The notes under the pieces are model-generated. The model was not told the DNA's origin and did no database searches. It saw nothing but the letters and a program-made list of their open reading frames with translations. From positions 310,001 through 374,000 of the forward strand of contig WIUZ02000001.1 in assembly GCA_015956445.1 (NCBI GenBank): a stretch of 64,000 bases of DNA. Reading direction: 5' to 3'. Positions within the stretch are counted from its first letter, which is position 1, and each line of letters starts with the position of its first letter. The DNA comes from Thelephora terrestris (Eukaryota; Basidiomycota; Agaricomycetes; Thelephorales; Thelephoraceae). A program made the position numbers and the translations under genes. Below are positions 15,054 through 64,000 of the stretch, piece after piece.

Positions 15054-17882
15054 ATGTCCTCCCCGACAGCTCAGCAACCGGCCTACAAACCATCCCACAA
15101 GGCTCTACAAGAGCTAGACCGCCTCGAAAGGTCTTCACTCGACTTTCCTGATCAACTCGCCAGCTTCCTCTCCAGGGAAGACTTCCAAGATTATGATGTT
15201 TGCAAAAGCCTTCGGGACGAGGATGCAGCGTGGCTTATCGACTATCTGGACAATGTTTGTGTTCGTTTTACTGTATCGCCTCTATACTGAACCTGCACAG
15301 ACCCTCGATACTCTCGATCCCGTTGATCCTGCATATCGAAAGTGCCTGGATGTGCTCCAACGCATATGCTGGATGAGTAAGAGGTTACCACGGTCGTACA
15401 TCCTTGATATTTCGCCCTTTGTCCCCATTGCTGGTCCAACCTCCATTGGGCCTTACGAATTCATTTACGAAGGGTCAATAAATGGTTCAAAGGCTTGCGC
15501 CAAGAGGTTCAACCCCTCCCTCTCATCGGCATGGTGGCGTGTCAAGATGGTACCTGATCAACACTCTTGTCTCTCCCGCTTTCCCCATTGACTCGATCGA
15601 CAGTTTGAATCTGGTGAGATTGTCAAGTGGAAACGTTTGACGCACCCGAACATCGTCCCCTTCCTTGGCATCACCAACGAGCCCATCCATCTTGTTTGGG
15701 CCCGGGCGCCTGGCGTAGAACTAAGTAGATATATCAACAATCACCCAGATACAAACAGGCTTGATCTTGTGAGTGTCTCCCTTCTCGTGTCTTGGGTTTT
15801 GTTCACACCATTAAAAGTTAATCGGCATTGCCAACGGCCTTGATTACCTTCATTCCCATGATGTGAATCATGTAGATCTCGGTGGGGTGCGCAATCACAT
15901 GAAGCCCATATGGCAGCCATGCTGATACCCAGACAGCCCAACATCATTGTTGATGACTCTGGCTGCCCGCACATCACTGAATACTGCTTCAACAAATTTT
16001 TTTCATGGTACCCACAAGCCAATGTTCATCGCTGTATGCGATGGGCTGATCCCCAATCGTCACCTGGGGACAAAGGTGATGTTTTCTCCTTTGCAATGAT
16101 CGTGGTTGAGGTAGGTCGCAAATAGTAGCCCCAAACAGACAGTTGGTGAACCTACTCCCCACCCCAACATAGGTTTTCACCGGTCAAGCTCCATTCTTCC
16201 CTGAACCTGATACTGTGGCACTGTTGGCTCTAAAGAGGGGGGATCGCCCGGAGCGGCCAACGCATAGGGATCTCACTGCTAAGCTGTGGGCATTGGTAGA
16301 GAGATGCTGGGACAATGACTGGGAACAGCGCCCCAAAATGCCGGAGGTATTAGAGATCTTGCGTGACTGGTCAGTGTTCCTCTTCCTGGCAGCCAACCGC
16401 TCATTGCAAAATCCTCATCAGCCGCAATGATGACCAAGTTCTCATCCCAGTCCTTCAACCAGCATCATCTGACTGGTTCTTACAAATCATGAACGAAATA
16501 CTGGACCTGACAGACCAAGTTGCATCAGTTGCCCTTTTCGGGCCGATCGGCGTTGGGAAGACTTTTGTGGCTCGTAACATCCTAGAAAACGACCGAACCA
16601 AAGCTATTTTTGGTGAAAACCGTTACTTCATGTGTTGCGATGGCCTCGAGGACTCGCTGGAGGGTTTCATCCAGCGCCTATCTGGCGCCACCCACACTGA
16701 TGAAACACAATTCAAGTCACACCTCCAGTCCCCATCTCCGATCCTGTTATTGCTTGATAGTGTGGATTCTCTCCTCGACTCACGGGCCCCTGAAGCCGAG
16801 AAAATCTATGCAATGATAGAAGAATTTGGTAGCCATGAACACGTCGGCCTGGTCACTACCAGCAGGATGTATCCGGACATTCACGGTTTCCGCCGGGTCG
16901 AAGTACCAACTCCAACTGAGGATGGCGCACGAGACATTTTCTACAGCCTCTGCAACTTGGCCAGGTCACCTACAGTGGACGCCCTCATCACAACATTGGA
17001 CTCCCACCCGTTTTCCATTAAACTATTCGCCAGGATTGTACGCAAAAATAATTGGGATGAACATACACTGTCAAAGATGTGGGACGACCTGGAGGGCGTG
17101 CTGAGAACAACATATTACGAGAAGCTTGAGGACACTATCGAGCCAGTGTTCCACTCTCCGAGGATTAAAAAACTAGGTACCAGGGCTTGGGATGTGCTCG
17201 AGGGAATCACATTCTTCCAATCTGGGATTGAAGAACAACAATTGGAGGGGATTTTTGACGGAAGTGGGGTAAGGGAGGTGGTTGATGTACTCTGCAGATT
17301 TTCCCTTGTCTATCGCCGAAACGGAGTTCTGAAGATGTTATCCCCACTCCAATTCTACTTTCGGCAGCCTATGATCTACCTGGATGAAATTGGTATGTCC
17401 CATTATTAGATCTATTTTGCGGTTGTCGTGTGAACATATTTTACCAGTGCCCACATGTGAAAGGGGTACGTCCCCTTATTAGATCTATTTCGCGTTTGTC
17501 ATGTGAACATTTTGAAGTGCCGCCTTACACTGGAGGTCGACTACCATATTATCCTCGCAGGCCCAAACCTCCCCAAAAATGGAAAGGGATTGGAAGACTA
17601 CCGCAAATTGTGAAGAAAGGTAAACACCATACCCCGGATTGCTCATTCATTATAGCTGATTGCTCCAATTCCACAATAGGGCTCAGGGCTCTCTTTAGCT
17701 GGCGGAAAGCACCCACCATACCGAACGACATTGAACAAGCTCCTGTAGGTATCCTGCCCCCAGGCCTACAGGAAAGTCCTGCAACCATCCCGGCTACCGC
17801 CGCACAACACAAATCCCCAGAGATCCCGCCTGGCGTTGCACAGGAAGTGCTTACGAATTCGCCACCGCACAAGAAGATGTAA
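15054..17882 (+). CDS. TKL pseudokinase fused to an NB-ARC/NACHT-type P-loop ATPase (NLR-like)
   Basis: Ten exons give an uninterrupted 782-aa frame: 15054-15254, 15301-15549, 15604-15768, 15818-15886, 15937-16110, 16173-16369, 16422-17392, 17448-17465, 17518-17619, 17680-17882. Residues about 110-352 form a TKL kinase fold: Lys135 in ACAKRF, THPNIVPFLGI, ANGLDYLHSHDV, a catalytic loop reading HVDLGGPNI (Asp225 and Asn230 kept, Lys lost), DFG replaced by TEYC (about 242-245), then GDVFSFAMIVVEVFTGQ and a C-lobe RCW motif. A P-loop ATPase follows: Walker A GPIGVGKTF (Lys398), Walker B ILLLLDSVD (Asp464), an ARC-like helical region and a winged-helix-like end; no WD, TPR or ankyrin repeats are present. 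Fungal STAND proteins act in non-self recognition; that role is inference here. The 60-nt intron 17620-17679 has no stop and might be retained (802 aa). Confidence 0.85.
17393..17517 (+). other. tandemly duplicated intron flanking an 18-nt microexon
   Basis: Two successive blocks match closely: 17393-17447 plus the exon start TGCCC, and 17466-17517 plus TGCCG. Shared landmarks are the donor followed by GTCCC, TTATTAGATCTATTT, and GTGAACAT before the acceptor. Both introns (55 and 52 nt) have GT and AG ends and leave phase 1, so splicing out either the two short introns or one 125-nt intron preserves the frame. A roughly 75-bp tandem duplication most simply explains it. Confidence 0.7.
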
Positions 17883-59387: not shown

Positions 59388-60278
59388 CTACTGATATCGA
59401 CCACTCTTCCGGGCACCACTAACAGAGGAAGCGGACGAAGCGCGTGCACGCTTCTCACCAACCGTTGGTTCCACGAGATCATCAGAGTTCGGTACATCGT
59501 GAGCCGACCGATACTGCTTCACCCCTTCCAAACACACCTTCATCAAACCTGCTTCCTTGAGCGAGATATGGATTTTTGGAAGGAAGTCAGGTGGAATCAC
59601 CTCCTCGGGGTGTTGAGTTGCCATGTGGATGACCGCATTGTACTTCCAAATACAATGTTCACGCTGCGAAGAAACACAGAAAGGGCAGGATATCGGTATG
59701 TTTGTGCAAGGGGAAGTTTTTGTCGTGATTTGTGCTTGCCCGTAGTTGAAGGACGTGAATGCGTATCGACAACTGGAGGCGATGGTTACACGGCCTTTCC
59801 CTGTCTGATCGAGTGTAGTGGTGCAACCTTCTTTGCCGCAAAAACCGCACGGTTCTACCCCGAGCTGTGGATCGGGTTATCATTGAGAGGGCATGCAGCG
59901 TGCGCAGAAGCATACCTTGAGTGCTTCTTGGTTGCTCTCGCCGCACATGTGAGCAAGGATATGTCGTCCAACGTGTCCGCGCATGGACCCAAGAATATAG
60001 GGCTTGTTGCAGAGGAGGCACGCAATCTTGGTATCGCGTTGTAGAATCCCTGCCTGCGGCACCATCACGAGGTCATCGATAACAAAGTACTCGTGTTCTG
60101 GGAGACAGAGGTAAGGGCGAGAAGATGTACGAGAAAAATCAGATACCCACCGTCACTCTCTCGGTACGGCAATTCATCGACGGACATCGAAGTAAGAATT
60201 TTAAGGGAGTCGTGAATGTTCTCTGGAAATTGTTCCTCTAGGAGTCCCCACAACTGCGAGAGAGATTCGTTGAGGGAG
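59388..60278 (-). CDS. 5'-truncated repeat-associated cysteine-rich (zinc-finger-like) protein
   Basis: Three visible exons on the minus strand (about 60278-60151, 60097-59916, 59864-59388) splice in phase across introns of 53 and 51 nt. The product reads LSQLWGLLEEQFPENIH, EYFVIDDLVMVPQAG, a first cysteine/histidine cluster KIACLLCNKPYI...GHVGRHILAHMC, a second EPCGFCGKEGCTTTLDQTG...SCRYAF, then SPCTNIPISCPFC and CIWKYNAVIHMATQHPEE, ending in a basic Ser-rich tail. This Cys/His layout occurs in many-copy proteins scattered through agaricomycete genomes beside repeats. Upstream of about 60285 the frame meets a stop and the 35-bp satellite begins, so the N-terminal part has been replaced. It is probably a non-functional remnant, though the remaining exons are undamaged. 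Confidence 0.65.
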
Positions 60279-60288
60279 CCCCTTCAGC

Positions 60289-60400
60289 TATCTTTTCTCC
60301 ATGGGTCATGGACCATACATCGTGACAATTCTCCATGGGTCATGGGCCATGCAACGTTGTACAACGTGTTGTACAACCCATGACCCATGGAGAAAAGATA
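60289..60400. repeat. 23-bp inverted repeat at the outer edge of the array
   Basis: 60289-60311 (beginning TATCTTTTCTCCATGGG) is the exact reverse complement of 60378-60400. Array units inside and just after it (to about 60430) are in the opposite orientation to all later units, so array orientation flips here. Confidence 0.75.
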
Positions 60401-61760
60401 CCATTGTACAACCCATGACCCATGGGTAATGGAATAGTATCCGTTGCCCATGCCCCATGGGTTGTACAATGGTATCTGTTGCCCATGCCCCATGGGTTGT
60501 ACAACACTATCCCTTCCCCATGCCTCATGGGTTGTACAATGCTATCCTTTCCCCATGGGGCATGGGTTGTACAACGGAATCCAATTCCCATGCCCCATGG
60601 GTTGTACAACACTATCCTTTCTCCATGGAGCATGGGTTGTACAACACTATCCATTCTCCATGGGGCATGGGTTGTACAACACTATCCAGTTCCCATGGGT
60701 CATGGGTTGTACAACCCTATCCAATTCCCATGCCCCATGGGTTGTACAACACTATCCTTTCTCCATGGGGCATGGGTTGTACAACCCTATCTATTTCCCA
60801 TGCCCCATGGGTTGTACAATGCTATCCAATTCCCATGCCCCATGGGTTGTACAAAGCTATCCGTTCCCCATGGGTCATGGGTTGTACAACGCTATCTGTT
60901 CCCCATGGGTCATGGGTTGTACAATGCTATCCTTTCTCCATGGGGCATGGGTTGTACAACACTATCCATTCTCCATGCCCCATGGGTTGTACAACACTAT
61001 CCAGTTCCCATGGGTCATGGGTTGTACAACGCTATCTGTTCCCCATGGGTCATGGGTTGTACAACACTATCCTTTCCCCATGGGTCATGGGTTGTACAAC
61101 GCTATCCTTTCCCCATGGGTCATGGGTTGTACAACGCTATCCTTTCTCCATGGGGCATGGGTTGTACAACACTATCTGTTCCCCATGGGGCATGGGTTGT
61201 ACAACGCTATCCATTTCCCATGGGTCATGGGTTGTACAACACTATCCATTCTCCATGGGGCATGGGTTGTACAACACTATCCAGTTCCCATGGGTCATGG
61301 GTTGTACAACCCTATCCAATTTCCATGCTCCATGGGTTGTACACCACTATCTGTTCCCCATGGGGCATGGATTGTACAACACTATCCGTTCCCCATGCCT
61401 CATGGGTTGTACAACGCTATCCGTTCCCCATGGGTCATGGGTTGTACAACACTATCCGTTCCCCATGGGTCATGGGTTGTACAACACTATCTGTTCCCCA
61501 TGGGTCATGGGTTGTACAACGCTATCCATTTCCCATGCCCCATGGGTTGTACAATGCTATCCTTTCTCCATGGGGCATGGGTTGTACAACACTATTCTTT
61601 CCCCATAGGGCATGGGTTGTACAACACTACCCATTCTCCATGCCCCATGGGTTGTACAACACTATCCAATTCCCATGCCCCATGGGTTGTACAACAGCAT
61701 CTTGTGCCCATGGGGCATCAGTTGCAGAATGGTGTCCTTTCTCCATGTCCCATGGATTAT
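60289..61760 (+). repeat. 35-bp tandem satellite array, left copy (about 40 units)
   Basis: The period is 35 bp, checked at several places. Each unit has a perfect 10-bp palindrome GTTGTACAAC, then a [A/G]CTATCC spacer, then an interrupted palindrome CCATG-N3-CATGG. The N3 centre varies (GGG, GGT, CCC, CCT, GAG), so CCATGGGGCATGG and its complement CCATGCCCCATGG alternate irregularly. Some units extend the first palindrome to GGGTTGTACAACCC. The plus strand of the unit has no stop codon in any frame. Confidence 0.92.
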
Positions 61761-61870
61761 ATCACTATTCCAGGAAAGGAGATACTTTGTAAATCAACCA
61801 TTAGCTGTGTGAATTTGAAAAAAATTAGACTCTGTTTGTATGCATGATAGACCATATATCAGTTTGTGGC

Positions 61871-62096
61871 TCTAACCTAATGGAAACTAAACTTAACCTG
61901 ATAATAGCCACAACCTAATCCTCAATCTAACCTGAGCCAATGTAAACTTGACCCATGAACCTAAGCCTAACCTAATCCTAAACCTGGTCTAATCCCAAAT
62001 CTAACCCTAACCTGACCTGACCTAACCTAACCTAGCCTAACCTATACCTAAACCAACCTATACCTATACTAACCTATACCTAACCTAACCTGGTAT
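61871..62096 (+). repeat. degenerate CCTAA-type tract, left arm
   Basis: About 225 bp rich in CTAACCT, CTAACCCTAACC and CCTATACC variants. It resembles a degenerate form of the TTAGGG-class telomeric repeat, C-rich on the plus strand. Confidence 0.7.
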
Positions 62097-62340
62097 GGGC
62101 AAACCTAACCTACCTATCATGACCTGTTTCAGCCTAATGTCATGTATGCCAGCCAAGACTAACTTCACCCAGTTGCAAACATATGACTTGGGTCACAGGA
62201 CCATAAAGCAAACTGCAGTCCCCTCACTCTGTGCCCAACCATCCCATAAGCCCACAGACGCACATATATATCATCAGCAACCCAGCATCATGCTTATCAC
62301 CCATGTTCAACCACAAACCACTCTCACCCTTTGTTCTGTG

Positions 62341-62494
62341 CCATCGCACAGACAAACCACAACTCAAGTTCATCCACCTCCTTGGGCCCACAAGCAAGTG
62401 GCCTACAAACATATGGTTTATAGACTTATAACATATTCCACACAAGGATTAATATGGGTGGGTGAGCTGGAGTTATGGTTAGGCTTTGAGATAG
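62341..62494. other. unpaired loop at the palindrome axis
   Basis: Symmetry stops after TTGTTCTGTG (62340) and resumes at CACAGAACAA (62495). The 154 bp between are not self-complementary and hold no recognisable element. Confidence 0.75.
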
Positions 62495-62738
62495 CACAGA
62501 ACAAAGGGTGAGAGTGGTTTGTGGTTGAACATGGGTGATAAGCATGACGCTGGGTTGCTGATGATATATATGTGCGTCTGTGGGCTTATGGGATGGTTGG
62601 GCACAGAGTGAGGGGACTGCAGTTTGCTTTATGGTCCTGTGACCCAAGTCATATGTTTGCAACTGGGTGAAGTTAGTCTTGGCTGGCATACATGACATTA
62701 GGCTGAAACAGGTCATGATAGGTAGGTTAGGTTTGCCC

Positions 62739-62964
62739 ATACCAGGTTAGGTTAGGTATAGGTTAGTATAGGTATAGGTTGGTTTAGGTATAGGTTAGGC
62801 TAGGTTAGGTTAGGTCAGGTCAGGTTAGGGTTAGATTTGGGATTAGACCAGGTTTAGGATTAGGTTAGGCTTAGGTTCATGGGTCAAGTTTACATTGGCT
62901 CAGGTTAGATTGAGGATTAGGTTGTGGCTATTATCAGGTTAAGTTTAGTTTCCATTAGGTTAGA
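62739..62964 (-). repeat. degenerate TTAGG-type tract, right arm
   Basis: Mirror image of the tract at 61871-62096: GGTTAGGTTAGG and GGTTAGGGTTAG variants on the plus strand. Confidence 0.7.
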
Positions 62965-63074
62965 GCCACAAACTGATATATGGTCTATCATGCATACAAA
63001 CAGAGTCTAATTTTTTTCAAATTCACACAGCTAATGGTTGATTTACAAAGTATCTCCTTTCCTGGAATAGTGAT

Positions 63075-64000
63075 ATAATCCATGGGACATGGAGAAAGGA
63101 CACCATTCTGCAACTGATGCCCCATGGGCACAAGATGCTGTTGTACAACCCATGGGGCATGGGAATTGGATAGTGTTGTACAACCCATGGGGCATGGAGA
63201 ATGGGTAGTGTTGTACAACCCATGCCCTATGGGGAAAGAATAGTGTTGTACAACCCATGCCCCATGGAGAAAGGATAGCATTGTACAACCCATGGGGCAT
63301 GGGAAATGGATAGCGTTGTACAACCCATGACCCATGGGGAACAGATAGTGTTGTACAACCCATGACCCATGGGGAACGGATAGTGTTGTACAACCCATGA
63401 CCCATGGGGAACGGATAGCGTTGTACAACCCATGAGGCATGGGGAACGGATAGTGTTGTACAATCCATGCCCCATGGGGAACAGATAGTGGTGTACAACC
63501 CATGGAGCATGGAAATTGGATAGGGTTGTACAACCCATGACCCATGGGAACTGGATAGTGTTGTACAACCCATGCCCCATGGAGGATGGATAGTGTTGTA
63601 CAACCCATGACCCATGGGAAATGGATAGCGTTGTACAACCCATGCCCCATGGGGAACAGATAGTGTTGTACAACCCATGCCCCATGGAGAAAGGATAGCG
63701 TTGTACAACCCATGACCCATGGGGAAAGGATAGCGTTGTACAACCCATGACCCATGGGGAAAGGATAGTGTTGTACAACCCATGACCCATGGGGAACAGA
63801 TAGCGTTGTACAACCCATGACCCATGGGAACTGGATAGCGTTGTACAACCCATGACCCATGGGGAACAGATAGTGTTGTACAACCCATGACCCATGGGGA
63901 ACGGATAGTGTTGTACAACCCATGACCCATGGGGAACGGATAGCGTTGTACAACCCATGAGGCATGGGGAACGGATAGTGTTGTACAATCCATGCCCCAT
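63075..64000 (-). repeat. 35-bp tandem satellite array, right copy, running off the window
   Basis: Reverse complement of the left array, about 26 units to the window end. In-register identity to the left array holds to about 63838; after that the sequence instead matches, in order, units from left-arm positions about 61355-61520, pointing to unit exchange within the array. Confidence 0.9.

Follow-up and report, generated by a model that had tools for sequence, protein, structure and literature searches.

We analysed a window of 64,000 nucleotides (C1:310001-374000) from the assembled genome of Thelephora terrestris (40.6 Mb, 60 contigs). The window contains an AAA/NACHT-like ORF (16363-17406), an eisosome Pil1-like ORF and, towards its right-hand edge, a large palindrome that sits about 372 kb inside a 4.57-Mb contig. 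The inverted arms (60841-62378 and 62457-63994) are 1,538 nt each, 98% complementary and 78 nt apart. They differ by 29 mismatches. The outermost 156 nt account for 18 of these and the innermost 37 nt for 9, leaving 2, at positions 61250 and 62287, between 60997 and 62341. The inner arms (60997-62340 against 62495-63838) can be aligned without a gap, with these 2 mismatches in 1,344 bp and a 154-bp loop between them. This mapping bears out the start at 60997, the 1.34-kb arms, the 154-bp loop and the lack of indels given in a preliminary description of the locus. An inverted match that extends over 1.3 kb without a gap and has 2 mismatches does not come about by chance, and the palindrome is real. 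The order of array, spacer, tract and core from the outside of each arm was also found as described. In contrast, the extent first proposed, 60997..64000, was too short: the whole copy measures 4,634 bp and runs from 60276 to C1:374909, its last 909 bp lying beyond the window. The features are as follows.

16888..17376, - strand: paralogue of the empty target site of another copy (L027), in the AAA/NACHT-like ORF and not part of the element
60269..60275, no strand: left target-site duplication GTTGAGG, 7/7 exact
60276..60282, + strand: terminal heptamer GAGCCCC (R-type end)
60283..60411, + strand: subterminal inverted repeat beginning TTCAGCTATCTTTTCTCC, from the majority consensus of ends
60412..61712, + strand: left-arm 35-bp array of about 37 units with the palindromic motifs CCATGG and TTGTACAA, from the repeat finder
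61713..61869, + strand: left-arm spacer from array to tract, by eye
61870..62095, + strand: left-arm degenerate AACCT tract, approximate limits
62096..62378, + strand: left-arm core, with at least 40 copies in the genome
62342..62378, + strand: innermost stretch of the left arm, with 9 arm-to-arm differences in the window copy
62379..62456, no strand: loop, 78 nt between the aligned arms
62457..62739, - strand: right-arm core, limits mirrored from the left arm
62740..62965, - strand: right-arm AACCT tract, approximate limits
63123..64000, - strand: right-arm 35-bp array, continuing past the window end
C1:374903-374909, outside the window: terminal heptamer CACAGGG (L-type end) of the window copy
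64910-64916 in window-equivalent positions, outside the window: right target-site duplication GTTGAGG

The tract had been called telomere-like. We counted 15 AACCT and 1 CCCTAA in its 225 nt and, to our knowledge, an AACCT-type tract is not a canonical telomere repeat. On this composition the telomere reading was rejected, and we refer to the tract as AACCT-type.

The core had been considered unique. When positions 62100-62380 were used as a query against the genome, 80 matches were obtained at at least 40 places, 76 of them at 95-100% identity and 4 short ones at 86%; this number of places is a lower bound, 40 of 99 candidates having been scored. Both arm cores were present in 36 of these at least 40 copies. 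The 20 best of the 40 were retrieved together with the sequence about 4.9 kb to either side of their centre. In the family of the window copy (family A), an end consists of a heptamer followed by TTCAGCTATCTTTTCTCC, the heptamer being CACAGGG (L) at one end and GAGCCCC (R) at the other, and exact matches genome-wide numbered 48 for the L end and 58 for the R end. Two sister families were also found. Family B ends in CACAGGT and GAGCCCA, each followed by TTCAGCTACTTTTT, while most copies of family C have TTCAGCTATTTTTT behind L and TTCAGCGATTTTTT behind R. In all three families, one end of an element has a CACAGG-type heptamer, the opposite end has a GAGCCC-type one, and a like subterminal repeat comes next at both. 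A majority consensus, drawn from 28 L ends (including some of family C) and 22 R ends, is shared by the two end types over about 180 nt inward of the heptamers. The palindromic build was seen in B copies L032 and L033 and in C copies L034 and L035; the repeat finder detected 45-bp units, 27-bp units and an AACCT tract in L033, and 35-bp units with an AACCT tract in L035. Long inverted repeats made of tandem units in variable number, by which fold-back elements are recognised, were thus found in family A, in one B copy and in one C copy. Read in the same direction, CACAGGG and GAGCCCC carry complementary bases at 5 of 7 positions (counted by eye; this is not reverse complementarity), which may be chance.

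Each opening end was paired with whichever closing end of its family came first within 15 kb, L and R types being treated alike; before this step, one R-like end with 3 mismatches (C12:412947) was removed and two B-type R ends were added. This gave 74 pairs (49 A, 21 B and 4 C). L-R pairs accounted for 73 of them (48 A, 21 B and 4 C), and the sole L-L pair uses an end with two mismatches; dropping this end leaves 73 pairs and 30 unpaired ends. The paired ends are separated by 459 bp, in the A element L036, to about 12 kb, and the genome-wide end search located the elements on many contigs. On contig C12 (2532023-2533657), three R-type ends with a common orientation follow each other at intervals of 807 bp, which looks like a tandem triplication of one element's end. 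In addition, CACAGGATTCAGCCA, two letters off the L-type end, was present at five places (C2:1283634, C32:27369, C56:141750, C60:1094910 and C60:1107363) without a paired R-type end. One of these places was retrieved over 1.5 kb (L041), with no repeat and no ORF of more than 92 codons. No exact match to a 25-bp subterminal sequence was obtained in viral contigs.

We looked at the flanks of the 26 elements for which both ends were in hand. An exact 7-bp duplication was found in 24, and in the other two (L017 and L031) the 7-bp duplication has one mismatch. The duplication length was constant, as none of the 26 reaches 8 bp. L014, L023 and L025, from the first 20 copies, do not belong to this set since one of their ends lies outside the retrieved stretch. 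L021, which has two L-type ends 137 bp apart (L021:7224-7389), only the outer one adjoining a matching target duplication, was scored by eye at the outer end, and a mixed B-A end row in L024 was set aside from the count.

For the empty sites, the flanks of 17 copies were joined minus one duplication and compared with the window and the retrieved loci. Matches were obtained in 2 of the 17, L027 and L024. The joined flanks of L027 aligned with the paralogue in the window over 492 nt at 82.5% identity with no gap at the junction, and gaps rose from 3 to 10 nt when both duplications were kept. In this case a paralogue of the AAA/NACHT-like ORF of the window is interrupted by a fold-back element at C1:599424-604062. 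L024 lies in an array of 45-bp units resembling the family B array, and an array of this kind continues across its joined flanks; the match of L024 is less decisive because arrays slide. Matches of L011 were discounted as low-complexity AACCT sequence, and for the remaining 14 of the 17 copies no relative across the junction was present in the window or the retrieved loci.

We then considered the interior of the copies. Among 23 copies examined, 20 had both ends, and the orientation of their loop relative to these ends was L-R in 12 and R-L in 8. The inner 660 nt of the arms were compared in 17 of the 23 copies, 2 having been dropped for nested inserts and 4 for coverage below 0.9. Within the first 60 nt beside the loop, the difference between the arms inside a copy amounts to 13.8%, whereas the same arm differs between copies by 0.4% (left) and 1.6% (right), meaning that this difference is old and fixed. 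Eight loop-side arm differences were retained in 21-23 of the 23 copies. In 5 of the 7 bins from 60 to 480 nt, the two arms of one copy differed less than left arms or right arms did among copies. Farther out than 480 nt, the within-copy figure fell between the lower left-left and the higher right-right value, the broken arm of L014 being part of the reason. Taking everything beyond 60 nt from the loop, 9 of the 17 copies showed no arm difference at all (555-599 nt compared), against about 1% between copies. The strictly closest arm was the own partner in 9 of the 17 copies and was not in the other 8. As for the arrays, 7 of 20 copies had their longest ungapped identity run with their own other arm, the median runs being 157.5 within a copy and 118 between copies. 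The window copy is extreme, with an array identity run of 767 nt between its own arms. For the inner arm, the arm-to-arm homogenisation put forward in the preliminary description therefore has support in about half the copies; for the arrays this support is only partial.

We read this pattern as exchange and conversion between the arms, which would fail beside the loop and leave the tips unaltered, rebuilding or polishing being possible. Specifically, it is possible, though we consider it rather unlikely, that the likeness of the arms comes from fold-back copying at each transposition, or from the polishing of reads, instead of continuing conversion. The identity run of the window copy ends abruptly inside the array, at 60996, as such events might leave it, and all the sequence compared comes from one assembly, in which polishing of near-identical arms is possible. 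However, the eight loop-side differences persist in nearly every copy, and polishing should also blur the differences between copies.

Altogether, the palindrome in the window is very probably one copy of a family of non-autonomous fold-back DNA transposons. We favour this reading because the ends are unlike and defined, the target duplications are 7 bp long, the copies are dispersed and two sister families are alike in ends and palindromic build. A fold-back element was one of four candidates listed at the outset, and it is the one to which the dispersed copies, the fixed unlike ends and the target duplications point; the other three do not explain dozens of copies of this kind. It is highly improbable that the locus results from a break-induced inverted duplication or is a centromeric or subtelomeric palindrome. 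Satellite-like arrays are present in the arms, and the elements are spaced more tightly than at random (15 neighbours less than 50 kb apart, where 2,000 simulations gave 6.3 on average and 15 at most, for the 62 of the 73 elements that lie on contigs of known extent), but such an origin conflicts with the fixed heptamer ends, the 7-bp duplications, the empty sites and the spread over many contigs. Palindromes are also a hazard in assembly. Nevertheless, a fold-back made by the assembler is scarcely credible here, since it predicts an isolated locus without flanking duplication when the window locus is one of at least 40 and has a duplication; neither would an artefact explain why 24 of 26 elements have the same 7 bp just outside both of their unlike ends, nor why fixed differences remain beside the loop.

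Long copies were inspected for a mobilising enzyme. L029-L031, of which two are A copies of 9 kb and one is a C copy of 8.4 kb, carry nested insertions. A Pfam scan of 10 ORFs in these three copies gave no match of any kind, and no transposase was found in them. Several fold-back elements contain an inserted 3.3-kb repeat (L023:601-3906, L030:5203-8507, L031:3015-6341 and L029:1610-7875, the last itself interrupted). The tips of this repeat are TGTCAGG..CCTGACA, its flanks show what appear to be 5-bp duplications, and its scanned ORFs had no Pfam match. When the ends were relaxed to CACAGGNTTCAGC and GAGCCCNTTCAGC, no coding family appeared among the first 100 places in two listings, almost all one-mismatch places lying outside these.

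Domain searches were then made in the whole genome. The KDZ domain gave 125 exon-wise matches, which collapsed to about 60 places, and none of these was inside any of the 73 paired elements (the 30 unpaired ends being outside this test). One unpaired B end on contig C13 lies 10 kb from a KDZ gene; no matching left end was present in the 1.3 kb inspected, which belongs to another repeat. The sole KDZ element end that could be defined (left, in L039/L040) is CACCTCGTTCTC, unlike the fold-back heptamers. L039 from position 2577 (C12:1777704) and L040 (C34) are KDZ element copies; they match each other at 99.3% along 7.4 kb or more and their left flanks differ, which suggests recent KDZ movement in the T. 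terrestris genome. For hAT, 3 dimerisation-domain matches were obtained, and for MULE 2 matches, neither of them within a paired element. Searches for P-type transposase and for Tet_JBP gave 0 matches each, with the control likewise silent in both.

Our best guess, somewhat short of even and tentative, is that the elements are mobilised by a KDZ (Kyakuja-like) transposase. The 7-bp duplication length and the abundance of KDZ in this genome favour it; what disfavours it is the GAGCCCC end, together with the fact that no KDZ element with CACAGGN/GAGCCCN tips was found. According to the part of the source consulted, Kyakuja elements (KDZ, Agaricomycotina) resemble the fold-back elements in their 7-bp duplications and in one end starting with CA, and differ in having CA..TG ends, no inverted repeats and a transposase gene (PMC12730594), whereas the fungal fold-back right end is ...TC; the fit to this description is weakened by the GAGCCCC end and the long inverted repeats. 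KDZ elements of Cryptococcus are reported with inverted repeats of 139-241 bp and duplications of 4-8 bp (PMC12810828). There is about an even chance that the same fold-back transposon is moved by a non-KDZ enzyme, whether hAT with 7-bp duplications, MULE, P-like or undescribed. The fold-back plan has arisen alongside transposases that are not related to each other, a MULE one in Tm1 (PMC3169594) and a P one in Galileo (PMC3573991), and hAT7 of rusts generates 7-bp duplications (PMC12730594), as far as the consulted parts of these papers go; the absence of KDZ places from the paired elements points the same way. On the other hand, hAT and MULE domains are rare in the genome, and the P-type search was empty but so was its control.

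Whichever enzyme acts, the fold-back elements could move as follows. A cut-and-paste transposase supplied in trans would bind the repeated palindromic motifs of the arrays, a step that we propose because the tandem repeats of Galileo hold the binding sites of the THAP domain of its transposase (PMC3573991, PMC3688188, in the parts compared). It would pair one L heptamer with one R heptamer and insert the element with a 7-bp stagger. Recombination between the arms within a copy would flip the loop, and one arm would be rewritten from the other. The stretch beside the loop and the terminal heptamers would be exempt from this, and their differences would be kept because only L-R elements move. 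That all of this forms a KDZ-driven system, in which the two heptamers are an obligatory left/right code, the interior is free to flip and rewrite itself and only L-R elements survive transposition, is a possibility that we place on the unlikely side.

Among known systems, the plan of the T. terrestris family is closest to those of nematode Tm1 and Drosophila Galileo, and Tm1 appears the nearest because it too has unlike 7-bp tips outside repeat-filled inverted repeats; the comparison covers parts of the source papers. In Tm1 (Mutator/Foldback, root-knot nematodes), the inverted repeats consist mostly of tandem units in variable number, asymmetric 7-bp motifs lie at both tips outside the inverted repeat, copies are mostly non-autonomous, and a rare copy with two same ends was ascribed by its authors to crossover (PMC3169594). 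Tm1 differs from the fungal family by mostly 9-bp instead of 7-bp duplications, a MULE (Phantom) transposase and units of about 14 bp instead of 35 or 45 bp, and its arms are on average 93.15% identical (PMC3169594). Galileo (P superfamily) shares long, internally repetitive inverted repeats and 7-bp flanking sequences (PMC3573991), as well as chimeric copies of variable length (PMC3573991, PMC3688188). It has a P-type transposase (PMC3573991), for which the search in the T. terrestris genome gave nothing with a silent control, and unlike heptamer tips are not mentioned in the parts of the papers compared (PMC3573991, PMC3688188). Tetris of Drosophila virilis, in the part of its description compared, is likewise a fold-back element, apparently non-autonomous, whose inverted repeats contain tandem repeats and which has a link to satellite DNA, but its repeats are of about 220 bp and it feeds free satellite arrays (PMC4079207). 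No fungal fold-back family with such unlike ends was found among the papers listed from the openly available literature, at the level of titles and opening lines.

Kilobase palindromes are usually thought hard to maintain. Here, dozens of them are present in one fungal genome, with what may be a readable record of arm exchange, and the L-R pairing in 73 of 74 elements would be a natural test of the need of a transposase for two unlike ends.
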